Shown here piece after piece: positions 18,797 to 23,584 of a stretch of DNA of 29,067 nt. The stretch covers positions 1 through 29,067 of IMG/VR virus record IMGVR_UViG_3300015368_000316. One strand, written 5' to 3'. Each line of letters starts with the position of its first letter. Positions within the stretch are counted from its first letter, which is position 1. The stretch comes from a virus. The position numbers and the translations under genes are program-made. The notes below the pieces were generated by a model. The model was not told the DNA's origin. It searched no databases and saw nothing but the letters and a program-made list of their open reading frames with translations.

Positions 18797-18835
18797 GCGC
18801 GGTGGGAAGTCAATCCTGCGATTTGATCACCGCGC
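18797..18835 (-). promoter_or_regulatory. 8-bp inverted repeat at end of ATPase gene
   Basis: GCGCGGTG (18797-18804) and CACCGCGC (18828-18835) are exact inverted complements around a 23-base spacer, and they span the ATPase stop codon. The stretch 18753-18809 between the ATPase and the secreted hydrolase is the longest noncoding gap in the window (57 bases). No T-run follows on the minus strand, so it may be a weak terminator, an attenuator or chance. Confidence 0.3.
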
Positions 18836-20045
18836 GCCAATGGAACTGGCGTGTGTTGGGATTGAGGCCGTCGGATTTTTCAAGCAGGCCGGAGCGCTCC
18901 ATGATCTCGATGACCCGCATCACGCTGTGAGCCGGGACTCGGTCGCGGGCGAAGTTGACGACTTTGTTCTCGGCCACCCCTTCGCGCTTGAGATCGGAGG
19001 CGAGGATGTAGTGGTAGATTTCGTCCATGGCCTTGGAGTCGGCACCGATCGCCCCGGCTTTGAAGATCTCAGGCATGAAGCCCTCGGCCTCAAGGAGCCA
19101 ACCCATGGCGGTGTTGAACACGGCCTTGGTCAGGAGGAGTTGGTTGCCGGAATCCACCGCGGCGATCATAGACAACTTAAGAAGATGCGCCAATCGTCGG
19201 GTGTTATAATGGGTGAGTTTTGGATGGTTTGGCACAGGGGCTTGGTCGAGCTTGCGCCAGTTGTTAATGGCGGCGCGGTAGTCTTCGGTGGCCACGAAAG
19301 GACCACTAAGAGAATTAATAAGACGGAGGTCGTGAACCATGTCAGGGCTAAGACCCCGAGCGCTTTGGGCAAAGAAATCATCGGAGATGATCCTTTCGTC
19401 GGAGAAGATCATAAGGACGCGGGAGGTGAAGCCTTGGTCCCAGGCGTTTTCGGGCATGAACTTGATGAGGTTGGAGGGGGTGGTTCCAGAAAGGATTGAA
19501 AGCTGTGGATGCTCGATAAGAATTTTAATATCATTTCCGCGTCGACGCTGTGCATAGGGTACGGTGACATCGTAGAACGTTGTAAGTCCTCCAATAATTT
19601 CATCGTCAAACTTGTGCATAAATGCTGATAGTTCGTCTGCAACAATGAACATCGAGTTGTATTCAAGGGGCCCCTCCGGGAGTCGGATTATGGATCGCTT
19701 GGAGTCGACAAGAGCGTCGACCATGGAAGCCATTGACATTGAAGTTGGTGAGAGGTGAAAGTCAGGTAACTCACGATAGAACTTTGCACAAGCCATGATG
19801 GTTCTAGTTTTTCCGACCCCTGGATGACCAACGAGGAATACATACAGGTTAGGATAAAGTGGGGCGGAAGTTTGTAGCCAGACTTTTTGTTCAAGTACGG
19901 CCCCGATGGTTCCAATGGCAGCCCACTTACGGAAGATAGGAGCGCTCTCGAGATTGCTCGCATGGTCAACGAAGCTTTCTATCCAAGAGCCCAACTTTCG
20001 GCGACCGCTTCCGTTGGTCATGCCCGGTGTAGTCTTTGAGGCCAT
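18810..20045 (-). CDS. P-loop ATPase (DUF3987-like, replication-associated)
   Basis: 411 residues from ATG 20045, which has AAGGA 8 bases upstream; ATG 20051 is an alternative. Walker A is LVGHPGVGKT (71-80) and Walker B is MFIVADE (132-138). The opening GSWIESFVDHASNLESAPIFRKW and the YPNLYVFLVGHPG context resemble DUF3987-type ATPases found next to phage primase, helicase or polymerase genes. The C-terminal 100 residues look like a winged-helix (NKVVNFARDRVPAHSVMRVIEIME). It may act as a replicative helicase or loader. The gene overlaps the polymerase gene by 80 bases, so the two are probably translated together. No primase motif was seen. Confidence 0.65.
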   Translation of the reverse strand: MASKTTPGMTNGSGRRKLGSWIESFVDHASNLESAPIFRKWAAIGTIGAVLEQKVWLQTSAPLYPNLYVFLVGHPGVGKTRTIMACAKFYRELPDFHLSPTSMSMASMVDALVDSKRSIIRLPEGPLEYNSMFIVADELSAFMHKFDDEIIGGLTTFYDVTVPYAQRRRGNDIKILIEHPQLSILSGTTPSNLIKFMPENAWDQGFTSRVLMIFSDERIISDDFFAQSARGLSPDMVHDLRLINSLSGPFVATEDYRAAINNWRKLDQAPVPNHPKLTHYNTRRLAHLLKLSMIAAVDSGNQLLLTKAVFNTAMGWLLEAEGFMPEIFKAGAIGADSKAMDEIYHYILASDLKREGVAENKVVNFARDRVPAHSVMRVIEIMERSGLLEKSDGLNPNTRQFHWRAVIKSQD

Positions 20046-21450
20046 CAACATTTTCCTTAGAGTAATCGCCTTTGTTCCAGCCGACTTTGCAGTCGTATGG
20101 GATGGTCATATCGCGGTTGTTTTTGAGGGGGATGGCTTCGAGGAGTTGGGCTTGGATGAGGGGGATGATGCGGTCTTCGTGGGCTTCGGGGTAGGCGATG
20201 GTGATGGCGTCGTGGTCTTGGAAGATGACGATGGCGTCGCGGGCCGACCAGATGCGAAGCATGGCGGAGTTTACGATGTCCGCCAAGGAACATTGGGGGT
20301 CGTACGCAATAGCTTCACGTAGAACGCCCTCGTCATTTCGTCGGCCCCAGAACTGACGTTTGCGTCCAGTAAGCGAAGTAAGAGTTCCAGCTCGTCGGAG
20401 GCTAGAGTCAACGTGGCTTTGCCATTGCTGGTGGGCAGGGAAGGCTCGGAAGTACTTGGGCTGAAAGGCTTCGACGACGCCAAGGGGGAGCTTGGCCTGT
20501 GCAGAGAGAGTTGCAGGTTTACCTCCGTAGTTACTTCCGTGCCCAAGTTTTTTGCACATGAAGCGGTAAGTGTAATGTCGGTAGTAAGGCTGCTCGGCGA
20601 TATCTTTATCTTGCTTGAGGTCACCTGTCCAAGGGAGGTCAGGCCAGCAAATTCTAGCAACTGCTGTATGTACGTCGCCAGATTCAACGGCATCGAGGTA
20701 GAGTCCATCATTGAAAAGGTTCCATTCGATTGCGCCGACGCAATAGCTCTCTCCGGACTTCGCGTCGAACTTGGCAAACTTCATTCCAGGATCGGCGATG
20801 AAGATAGAACGGAGAGACTCTTCGACATTCTGTAGGTTGCCTCCGGTTCCAAACTCAGAAAAGCTAGAACTCCAGCGGCCAGTAGAAGTACCAGCAATAT
20901 TGTAGCTAGTTCGAAGTCTTCCATCGGGGTCAATGCTCGTTTTGAGGACGGAGATTTTCTTGCCAAGGTCCCGCATGGTTGTGATGTGGCGGACGATCTG
21001 GCGGGCGATTAGGTATTGTTCCATCTTTTCAAGGGCTTCGCGGTTGACGGTGACCGTGCCGCCGCGCTTGATGGCCGGGATGGCGAGCTGGTTGTAGAAG
21101 AGGTCTTTTAGATCGGCCGGGGACCGCCAGTTGAAGTGGGGGAGGCCGACCCCTTCGAAGACGATGCGTTCGAGGTTGGAGTTGAGGTGCTCGATCTTGG
21201 TGAAGTAAGAGTCGATGACTTCGGCTTTACGAGCCTGATCAACCAAGACTCCCCGCAGTCGCATTTCCAAAGCTGGACCTTGTAACGCCCTCGAGAAGGT
21301 GTATGTACGATTCGTGAACTCATCCAATTGCGGTAAAAGCGCATCGAGAACCTCCGCGGTGATGCAGCAGTCGAGGCCGTTGTAGACTTGATCGGCTTCC
21401 CACTTTGAGAGGTCGGTGGGGGCGATGGTGGAGGTGTTGATTATACGCAT
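19966..21450 (-). CDS. DNA polymerase family A, polymerase subunit with Exo III
   Basis: 494 residues. Near the N-terminus, YNGLD (Y23, D27) is the Exo III signature of a 3'-5' exonuclease whose Exo I and Exo II lie in the separate gene at 21648-22760. Polymerase motifs: TSTGRWSS (188-195), motif A with D229 in KFDAKSGES, motif B R296-xxx-K300-xxxxG305xxY308G, and motif C QDHDA with H413 and D414. His304 sits where Pol I has Phe762 and T7 polymerase has Tyr526. Motif C has Ala where Pol I has Glu. Both metal-binding Asp are kept, so synthesis should be intact. No good ribosome binding site precedes the ATG; translation probably depends on the 65-residue ORF ending 3 bases upstream. Confidence 0.9.
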   Translation of the reverse strand: MRIINTSTIAPTDLSKWEADQVYNGLDCCITAEVLDALLPQLDEFTNRTYTFSRALQGPALEMRLRGVLVDQARKAEVIDSYFTKIEHLNSNLERIVFEGVGLPHFNWRSPADLKDLFYNQLAIPAIKRGGTVTVNREALEKMEQYLIARQIVRHITTMRDLGKKISVLKTSIDPDGRLRTSYNIAGTSTGRWSSSFSEFGTGGNLQNVEESLRSIFIADPGMKFAKFDAKSGESYCVGAIEWNLFNDGLYLDAVESGDVHTAVARICWPDLPWTGDLKQDKDIAEQPYYRHYTYRFMCKKLGHGSNYGGKPATLSAQAKLPLGVVEAFQPKYFRAFPAHQQWQSHVDSSLRRAGTLTSLTGRKRQFWGRRNDEGVLREAIAYDPQCSLADIVNSAMLRIWSARDAIVIFQDHDAITIAYPEAHEDRIIPLIQAQLLEAIPLKNNRDMTIPYDCKVGWNKGDYSKENVDGLKDYTGHDQRKRSPKVGLLDRKLR

Positions 21451-21453
21451 AGA

Positions 21454-21651
21454 CTAGTTAAGTTTCTTGTGTCGTGCAAGATGGTCTGCCACGATCTCAT
21501 TCATGAACTCAGGCAAAGTCTCTCCTTGTTCGATCGCTTCAGAGATTGCCTTCTCTGCGGCAGCGAAGTTCTTCTTGATCTGCTCGGTTATGCGATCGAG
21601 TTCCTTAATCTCTTCGGGGGTCATCCCGTCTTCCCAAGATTTCTTTGTCAT
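21454..21651 (-). CDS. Small ORF separating the two polymerase genes, 65 aa
   Basis: The ATG overlaps the stop of the UDG-exonuclease gene (ATGA), and its TAG ends 3 bases before the polymerase ATG. The product is acidic and helical (TPEEIKELDRITEQIKKNFA, then AAEKAISEAIEQG) without recognised motifs. Its codons have mixed third positions, unlike the C-ending codons on both flanks, which suggests a separate origin. It might be an inserted gene, or it might hold the two polymerase parts together. Function unknown. Confidence 0.6.
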   Translation of the reverse strand: MTKKSWEDGMTPEEIKELDRITEQIKKNFAAAEKAISEAIEQGETLPEFMNEIVADHLARHKKLN

Positions 21652-22760
21652 GCGTCGGCCTTTATGGTTTGAGAGTTCTTATGCTCTTGCTTCCACGCCC
21701 CGTGGTCGGTGTAGATCGAGCCGAGGAAGCCGAGGCCTTTGAGGGCTTCGGGCTGAAGGGCGTGTTGGAGAAGCATGGTGTCTTCGCAGGCGCCAAAGGT
21801 AGGAACGCGGTTGGCGCGCCATGTGAAGGCGAGGTCGTAGAGGCCGTTTTGGAAAACCTTGCGGATGGATCGGTCTTCGAGGATGGACCGGATAAAGACC
21901 CAAGCGGCCGATTCATCGGCGAGGGTTTTCCAATAGCTTTTGTTTCGCTTGCGCGAGTCCCAGATAGGGACGACCAAGGCGGTGGTGGGAGTGGGGGCGA
22001 AGCCGATGCAGGTGATTTGGTTCCCGGCGGTTTCGATGTCGACCGCGGCGAAGTCGGTGATGTAGCGGCGCTTGAACTCCCAGAGATCGGCGAGGTCGGG
22101 TTCGATCCAGATTTCACAAGCTGGGCGGCGGACCTCGGGAAACTCGGCCTCGCGTTTGGCCTTGACGAGGTCCATCACGGTGACGGGGCGGAGTTCCCAT
22201 TGGCGAAGGACAGCGGCCGGGTGGTATGTAGGAAGCACTTTGTATCCAACAGCAGTATGGGTGGATAGCCGAGTGGAACCGCGAACCTTAGAGATGCCTG
22301 TAAGTCCGCACAGTGCCCAGAGAGGCGTATTGCCGAAGGCGATAACCAAGTTCGGATCGATGGCGATGATTTCATCGGCGAGGGCCTCGAGGTGGGGGAT
22401 GTATTCGCGGGAGACGTAGCCGGATTTCTTCCGGTGGCCGCCGGTTAGGAGAGGATAGCCCCGGAGGCCGTCGCGCTTGTCAACGAATAGGGACCCGATG
22501 TCGTTGGCATGGGGGTGGAACGGGAAGACGTTGGCGCGGTGGACCTCTGGGTGTAGGCGCCAGACAGCGTCGATGCAGGCCGGATCGCCGAGGTTCCAGA
22601 AGCGAGAGATGAAGGAGTGGTCCTCGGAGGTGAGGGTGATGATGTCGGCCTCGTCGAGGAGGCGAAGTAACTCCACGCCACTTGCCCCGACGAAGCCGAA
22701 ACCCAGCTTTGCCTCATTACTGCCGTAAGCTTCGCCGAGGAGAACTATGGGCTTAGTCAC
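21648..22760 (-). CDS. UDG-like domain fused to N-terminal part of polymerase 3'-5' exonuclease
   Basis: 370 residues from GTG 22760, which overlaps the preceding gene by 8 bases; the longer version from 22871 would overlap that gene almost completely. Residues 1-205 resemble family 4/5 uracil-DNA glycosylases: LLGEAYGSNEAKLGFGFVG (7-25) and YHPAAVLR (179-186). The Cys set of family 4 iron-sulphur enzymes is not apparent. Residues 235-370 are a DnaQ-like fold with Exo I D241-x-E243 (VDIET) and Exo II N305-xxx-D309 (FQNGLYDL). The protein stops just after GLGFLGSIYTDHGAWK, before Exo III, which is in the polymerase gene. SPO1 polymerase is a known case with a UDG-like N-terminus in one chain; here the chain is divided. 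Confidence 0.8.
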   Translation of the reverse strand: MTKPIVLLGEAYGSNEAKLGFGFVGASGVELLRLLDEADIITLTSEDHSFISRFWNLGDPACIDAVWRLHPEVHRANVFPFHPHANDIGSLFVDKRDGLRGYPLLTGGHRKKSGYVSREYIPHLEALADEIIAIDPNLVIAFGNTPLWALCGLTGISKVRGSTRLSTHTAVGYKVLPTYHPAAVLRQWELRPVTVMDLVKAKREAEFPEVRRPACEIWIEPDLADLWEFKRRYITDFAAVDIETAGNQITCIGFAPTPTTALVVPIWDSRKRNKSYWKTLADESAAWVFIRSILEDRSIRKVFQNGLYDLAFTWRANRVPTFGACEDTMLLQHALQPEALKGLGFLGSIYTDHGAWKQEHKNSQTIKADA

Positions 22761-22941
22761 GGGTAACACCCAGTTGATCCACCAGCATTCGTGCCAAGGT
22801 TTCGATGACATGCGTGGCGTTGATGTAGGTGGTGCCCTCAGCCAAGGGCATGATAGCAACCTTGATCCCAAGCTCCTTAAGATGCTCAGGGTTGGTGCTT
22901 AGCTTGTCTGTGGGGTCGTAGATAACGTGAATGCTAGCCAT
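22753..22941 (-). CDS. Small hypothetical protein, 62 aa
   Basis: The ATG at 22941 lies 8 bases inside the preceding gene with AAAGGTG upstream. The product (MASIHVIYDPTDKLSTNPEH, then KVAIMPLAEGTTYINATHVI) has an alternating beta-alpha pattern with no known motif. It sits directly before the UDG-exonuclease gene and overlaps its GTG, so it is probably co-translated with the replication genes. Function unknown. Confidence 0.55.
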   Translation of the reverse strand: MASIHVIYDPTDKLSTNPEHLKELGIKVAIMPLAEGTTYINATHVIETLARMLVDQLGVTRD

Positions 22942-23119
22942 CTTCAAACACCTTTAGGGTTGTGGACTCATCCTTGGTTAAATACTCCACTCGATACATC
23001 GAGCCTTCTAGGAAGTACTTAAGCAAGCGGGAGAGGTTGCGGGTGTAGACGGGATCGCCAGAGAATTGGATATAGGCTTTGGGGGCCGAAGGATGCTGTA
23101 CCTTGTCTTCGGCCCCCAC
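22934..23119 (-). CDS. Small hypothetical protein, 61 aa
   Basis: It starts with GTG 6 bases after the stop of the putative ssDNA-binding gene; GGAG 9 bases upstream supports this start. The product has AYIQFSGDPVYTRNLSRLLK and ends with a beta-like MYRVEYLTKDESTTLKVFEDG. No family is recognised. It may be a small accessory of the neighbouring recombination genes. Confidence 0.5.
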   Translation of the reverse strand: MGAEDKVQHPSAPKAYIQFSGDPVYTRNLSRLLKYFLEGSMYRVEYLTKDESTTLKVFEDG

Positions 23120-23125
23120 TTCGCC

Positions 23126-23584
23126 TTACTCCACGACGAAGGTCTTGTTGATCCGCGCGAAGAACGACTCGCCATCCTTCGACGGTTCGTGGTTCACGAA
23201 GACCCCGACCTCGGCGCCGGGGGTCGACTCGATACCTTCACGAAGCGACTCGGCGGCGTTCATGTCGATGCCACAATGTTCGAGGAACTCCTTGAGGCGC
23301 CAGATCGAGCCCTCGGTCAGGTAGTAGGTGTTCTTCATGGTGACTTCGGACAGCTTCCGGGCGCCGAGGTAGGCCTTGAGTTCGTCAGGGTCCACGTCGT
23401 CACCGGCCGAGATCAGCTTGTGGGTGAATTCCACGAACTCGGTCTGTTTCTGCGAGGACTTATCGAACCGCGGCTGGCCGACAATCGAGGTGATGTAGGA
23501 GCCGACCGGCGCCGGCTTCGGCTTTTCGACATCGGACGGGGCGCGGTCGAGGATGGAGCCGAAGGTAGTGGGGGATTGTGCCAT
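23126..23584 (-). CDS. Putative ssDNA-binding protein (DUF669-like)
   Basis: 152 residues; AGGAAA upstream of the ATG lies inside the end of the ATPase gene. Features are a short disordered N-terminus, then VGSYITSIVGQPRFDKSSQKQTEFVEFTHKLISAG, which looks like the first strands of an OB-type fold with a Lys/Arg/Ser loop. A helix with aromatic residues follows (YYLTEGSIWRLKEFLEHCGID), and beta segments with GVFVNHEPSKDGESFFARI close the chain. This pattern resembles DUF669-type proteins encoded beside Sak4-like ATPases. It could coat single-stranded DNA for the annealase. The assignment is by context and pattern, not by a decisive motif. Confidence 0.45.
   Translation of the reverse strand: MAQSPTTFGSILDRAPSDVEKPKPAPVGSYITSIVGQPRFDKSSQKQTEFVEFTHKLISAGDDVDPDELKAYLGARKLSEVTMKNTYYLTEGSIWRLKEFLEHCGIDMNAAESLREGIESTPGAEVGVFVNHEPSKDGESFFARINKTFVVE

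Follow-up and report, generated by a model that had tools for sequence, protein, structure and literature searches.

A stretch of viral DNA, IMG/VR virus record IMGVR_UViG_3300015368_000316 (29,067 bases, hereafter the window), carries a family A DNA polymerase whose parts are encoded by two separate genes. The genes of interest are all placed on the minus strand. In order of transcription, they are a gene for a uracil-DNA glycosylase (UDG)-exonuclease protein, a small open reading frame (ORF) of 65 amino acids (aa), the family A polymerase gene, and a DUF3987/primase gene. The features are as follows.

21648..22760, minus strand: UDG-exonuclease gene, 370 aa from GTG at 22760, matching PF03167 and phrog_17
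22040-22032, minus strand: Exo I (D241, E243), in the UDG-exonuclease gene, part 1 of the DEDDy 3'-5' exonuclease domain
21848-21834, minus strand: Exo II (N305, D309), in the UDG-exonuclease gene, after the UDG domain
21659..21663, minus strand: AAAGG, Shine-Dalgarno-like, within the last exonuclease codons, with the ATG of the following ORF 7 bases downstream
21454..21651, minus strand: 65-aa ORF in the slot between the two genes, an orphan and proposed passenger; starts on the exonuclease stop (ATGA) and ends 3 bases before the polymerase start
19966..21450, minus strand: polymerase gene, 494 aa, carrying the end of the exonuclease domain and then the family A polymerase domain, matching PF00476 and phrog_17
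21384-21370, minus strand: Exo III (Y23, D27), in the polymerase gene, ahead of the polymerase domain
18810..20051, minus strand: DUF3987/primase gene, overlapping the 3' end of the polymerase gene by 86 bases

The UDG-exonuclease frame is open to 22871, its stop ends at 21648, and GTG at 22760 is the likely start. The exonuclease, small ORF, and polymerase genes lie in different reading frames. The exonuclease stop and the start of the small ORF overlap as ATGA, and the small ORF ends 3 bases (21451-21453) short of the polymerase ATG. Third-position C amounts to 58% in the exonuclease gene, 26% in the small ORF, and 47% in the polymerase gene. An earlier sequence-only reading of the window had described these ORFs, frames, joins, and this contrast in composition, and re-reading the coordinates gave the same picture, including its residue numbers for Exo I, Exo II, and Exo III when the first gene is counted from GTG 22760.

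By Pfam search, a UDG domain was found in the first protein (7.6e-11) and DNA_pol_A in the polymerase (1.4e-29), whereas the 65-aa ORF had no Pfam match. The PHROG DNA polymerase family phrog_17 was matched at 554-789 by the first protein and at 807-1239 by the second. Because these stretches adjoin, the two proteins are consecutive parts of one polymerase. The signature of a DEDDy exonuclease of the Pol I type, i.e., DxE, NxxxD, and YxxxD, is complete only when both proteins are taken together, and the family A assignment was given by the DNA_pol_A profile and the catalytic residues of motifs A, B, and C. The first domain is a predicted UDG, with GEAYG and HP motifs present, although the fourth residue of the first motif is variable in relatives. 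The order UDG, exonuclease, polymerase is that of SPO1-type polymerases.

Relatives were collected in two surveys. In the first, IMG/VR was scanned with the polymerase protein, which gave 73 loci, and a scan with the exonuclease protein added a few; with the window and the Caulobacter phage Kuura included, 73 junctions had both genes. A second scan, made with an alignment, gave 357 relatives; the 80 best were retained, and 70 newly numbered loci had both genes. Some contigs came up twice, so that the 143 junctions of both surveys are 124 distinct ones by flanking sequence. No polymerase relatives were found in GTDB genome contigs.

The cut was placed at the identical point in all 143 junctions, and none was fused. 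Since the scans were queried with the polymerase protein, fused close kin would have shown up. At the cut, the exonuclease mostly finishes with T-I-K-R-D-x and the polymerase of the first-survey phages typically opens with M-R/K-I-I-x-T; Kuura and its relative L084 share the cut, with the opening M-A-x-I-x-x. Where the position was present, Exo I was invariant in 66/66 sequences, Exo II in 69/69, and Exo III (Y23, D27) in 71/71. The polymerase residues D229, R296, K300, Y308, H413, and D414 were invariant in 74/74, and the polymerase motif residues were kept apart from a conservative change of E to D, seen in three distant rows. Distances between phages in the exonuclease were concordant with those in the polymerase (Mantel r 0.87). 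Because the cut recurs at 143 junctions with invariant active-site residues on both sides, chance is excluded, and so are an assembly error and a sequencing frameshift, which the sequence-only reading had named as a danger to its proposal.

A search for fused relatives and an alignment across the junction had also been proposed, and both were carried out. A single chain running through the junction was found in Microcystis phage Mel-JY34, ctMlz233, vir526, Desulfofustis phage LS06, and about 20 IMG/VR contigs. In these fused chains only a few residues lie between EWD.K and YN.KDA, whereas the split proteins have a short exonuclease tail and about 22 residues ahead of Exo III. In the trees, one change between fused and split is sufficient, with SH-like approximate likelihood ratio test (SH-aLRT) support of 98 (75 rows) and 100 (134 rows). 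In a mixture-model tree of 41 rows the change was supported at 99/99 and was present in all 200 bootstrap trees. The split was thus already present in the ancestor shared by a large clade of phages, and in that clade it is fixed. Because a fused sister group exists, a single ancestral UDG-exonuclease-polymerase gene, as the sequence-only reading had assumed, is supported as the probable starting point.

Breaks at other places were also observed. In L102:1343-1684 and L108:3626-3967, an HNH_3 endonuclease gene parts the UDG from the exonuclease in a Mel-JY34-type polymerase. In phage ctLwi270 (MW202554; L112:1727-4364), the UDG-exonuclease and the polymerase are two ORFs, cut about 30 residues past the break of the window's clade.

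The slot at the break was empty in 37 of the 124 distinct junctions. Fourteen of these have a 4-base overlap (e.g., ATGA), 11 have a 1-base overlap (e.g., TAATG), and in the remaining ones the genes are 0-29 bases apart. The other 87 junctions hold about 90-1800 bases. By phmmer, 105 insert ORFs fell into 75 unrelated families. Pfam matches of slot ORFs were endonuclease VII (3), HNH_3 (2 and 5, two sets), LAGLIDADG_3 (2), KTSC (9), DUF7768 (8), helix-turn-helix, and zinc-ribbon, and the majority belong to no known family. At least 12 of 102 scanned slot ORFs are HNH, endonuclease VII, or LAGLIDADG proteins. In the window, the slot ORF showed no homing-type endonuclease in Pfam or PHROG, and no relatives of it were found in IMG/VR, phage records, Pfam, or PHROG. 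In the Kuura relative L084, an RNase H (PF00075) gene lies in the polymerase slot (L084:3157-3678).

The content of the slot changes quickly. The nearest relative of the window, L004, has 98% DNA identity on the exonuclease side and 95% on the polymerase side, yet its slot holds an unrelated 62-aa ORF, and the similarity breaks off and restarts at the gene edges, i.e., at the exonuclease TGA and the polymerase ATG. L051 and L053 also have unrelated inserts between flanks that are 94% and 89% identical. In L062 and L063 the flanks have 84-86% identity but the inserts match at 99%, and therefore this insert moved recently. Presence of an insert changed at least 21 times on the tree. Other non-overlapping boundaries of the operon are as variable as the exonuclease/polymerase slot, whereas the polymerase/primase boundary, with an overlap of about 100 bases, is closed in 64/65 relatives. 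The turnover is thus shown, and the break would be a normal small-gene slot of the operon, which exists because the gene was cut. Among the small genes that enter, leave, and are exchanged there are nucleases of homing-type families.

The other end of the UDG-exonuclease gene was also observed to be variable. At 22753-23119 of the window, the stretch leading from this gene to the next conserved one (23126-23584) holds two short ORFs (61-64 aa), and the length of this boundary varies strongly among relatives. In the UDG-exonuclease genes of L049, L052, and L058, the match to the window's UDG domain does not start until about residue 75, and the N-terminal UDG part looks to have been replaced or strongly diverged.

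Putative signals of expression were found at the joins. In relatives, the 3' end of the exonuclease gene is mostly AAG-AGG-GAT just ahead of the last codon and the stop, so that the stop-overlapping ATG follows a Shine-Dalgarno-like AGAGGG after a few bases; the window has AAAGG. The arginine codon at this end is AGG in 36/52 genes, compared with 8.8% elsewhere in exonuclease genes, and a p-value for this enrichment is a guide only, as the sequences are related. The AGAGGG position precedes whichever ORF follows the exonuclease, and the joins are mostly ATGA or TAATG. Owing to this signal and the overlapping joins, the exonuclease, passenger, and polymerase genes are probably translationally coupled in one operon, with re-initiation. 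The TIKRD tail had been considered as a purely protein signal, and this was partly rejected because the choice of the arginine codon points to a ribosome site; T, I, and K of the tail are conserved as residues also.

For the structure model, L017 was read through the junction, since its halves are parted in frame only by TAG and one codon, and was aligned with fused and split relatives. The model had a predicted local distance difference test score (pLDDT) of 80 and a predicted template modelling score (pTM) of 0.77, and pLDDT fell below 50 at the junction (357-368). The conserved RII head formed a short strand beside this region. The top PDB matches were Klenow-type chains, with template modelling (TM) scores on the target of 0.70-0.77, nearly full length over the exonuclease and polymerase domains. 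The break sits in the loop that follows Exo II and leads to the helix of Exo III, a stretch predicted to be disordered, which agrees with the surface linker supposed before. Folded together, the two chains would make up a single Klenow-like enzyme in which the DEDDy proofreading site is complete and the UDG domain stands in front. Given the Klenow-like model, the invariant active-site residues on both chains, and the concordant distances, the best inference is that the halves assemble in trans. That they belong together, as the sequence-only reading had held, is borne out by the catalytic residues, all of which are kept on both sides.

It is very probable, taken as a whole, that the locus is an ancient split of a UDG-exonuclease/polymerase gene, that the two halves come together in trans, and that the break serves as an exchangeable gene slot. 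The 65-aa ORF would be its present occupant, a passenger that the polymerase does not require. Some points weigh against this. The fold evidence for assembly in trans comes from a single read-through chain, and expression and assembly of two proteins are read from sequence and model. The direction of the change is anchored by only 15 fused rows on long branches. The 65-aa ORF could also have a function of its own.

The origin of the cut can be explained in different ways. The sequence-only reading had supposed that the gene was cut by an insertion of about 200 bases, seen here as the 65-aa ORF, whose product may serve as a clamp on the halves. The ORF lies exactly at the break and is joined on both sides, but the 37 empty slots already refute a clamp as a general rule, the other slots hold 75 unrelated ORF families, near-identical L004 has a different ORF, and no relatives of the 65-aa ORF were found; this explanation can hardly be credited. 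What is left of it is that an insertion could have cut the gene earlier. The gene of the common ancestor may have been cut by an earlier insertion, possibly that of a free-standing nuclease of homing type, with the first insert lost or replaced and the slot staying open. This origin, which complements the exchangeable-slot explanation and does not oppose it, has about an even chance of being correct. It is favored by the nucleases of HNH, endonuclease VII, or LAGLIDADG type in the slots, by the two sister-group members with an HNH gene between UDG and exonuclease, and by T4-like precedents (PMC2988022). Inserts are present in all of the deepest split lineages, and up-pass parsimony places an insert at the base; an empty ancestral slot, given by the first tree, was dropped once inserts appeared on the deepest branches of the larger set. 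However, the slot nucleases are from differing families on scattered branches, and a nonsense change followed by re-initiation would lead to the identical end state, some junctions being only an in-frame stop and start.

The other alternatives concern what becomes of the halves. They might be joined into a full-length polymerase by programmed frameshift, stop read-through, or splicing. The ATGA overlaps are a -1 frame relation, and one in-frame stop parts the halves in L017, L044, L125, L126, L136, L179, and L186. But the 87 filled junctions mostly hold other ORFs, the stop types differ, and all three frame relations occur, so that the conserved frame relation expected of a programmed frameshift was not found across the junctions surveyed. 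No group I intron or other Rfam family was found in the window or the loci tested. For a splicing element at the break, i.e., an intron or intein, there was thus no Rfam match, and the halves have their own starts and stops and the slot is empty in 37 distinct junctions. A joined product is very improbable. It is also improbable that the halves act separately, as a polymerase without proofreading and an independent UDG-exonuclease repair enzyme. The genes are separate and UDG is a repair domain, but Y23 and D27 of Exo III are invariant in the polymerase while Exo I and Exo II are invariant in the partner gene, and both proteins share one history by the Mantel correlation. Finally, the split may have been retained as useful, with the dosage of proofreading and UDG set apart from that of the polymerase and with the slot tuning replication fidelity; a passenger gene would then alter the polymerase amount through coupling. 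Several lineages are one codon from re-fusion, and fused junctions number 0 of the 124 distinct ones. This usefulness is unlikely to be the explanation.

Read as an old split with an exchangeable slot, the clade offers a natural set of two-chain polymerases cut through the proofreading site, with and without genes between. It allows direct tests of the reassembly of a split enzyme, of whether proofreading is separable from synthesis, and of an opened gene boundary as a site of exchange.

Among known systems, split genes of T4-like phages are the precedent for an enzyme in two pieces. Aeromonas phages 25 and 44RR have a split gene 43 (family B polymerase), and nrdA of Aeh1 is split by mobE (PMC2988022). 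According to the same review, the gene 43 pieces of phage 25 co-purify and are active. As in the window's clade, a replication or DNA-precursor enzyme is in two pieces, and the break is occupied by a nuclease gene or some other sequence. However, gene 43 encodes a family B enzyme without the UDG-exonuclease-polymerase arrangement, and its split has been described in single phages, not in a whole clade with a changing slot.

The MEP401-type phages of OM43 bacteria (PMC10580990; OP830906) have a family A polymerase encoded by two ORFs, which flank a small ORF of 77 aa. Like the window, they show a small ORF of no known function at the break, and the split is present in most of the group. The cut differs, since it follows NLQN within the polymerase domain and immediately precedes motif A; the first ORF has an intact exonuclease domain, and no UDG part was seen in it. 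This cut site is that of four Mel-JY34-type polymerases cut right after LQN, i.e., L083:4662-5216, L104:4686-4958, L099:4644-4796, and L110:4676-5573. Their small ORFs differ, and L110 includes a methyltransferase-like ORF. The Mel-JY34 group itself has the UDG-exonuclease-polymerase order of the window, but in one chain across the junction.

Kuura (OQ067476, PMC9959647) has the identical cut site, where it carries two small ORFs (98 and 102 aa). It belongs to the same clade as its only cultured member found, and its polymerase is 36% identical to that of the window. Its record labels the exonuclease half hypothetical, an annotation that is corrected here, and a text search of the paper gave no mention of the split. 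Split phage enzymes working in trans (T4-like) and a split family A polymerase (MEP401-type) are already known. As far as the literature was searched, the new features are the Exo II/Exo III cut of a UDG-exonuclease-polymerase, its single old origin with clade-wide fixation, and the measured turnover of the slot.

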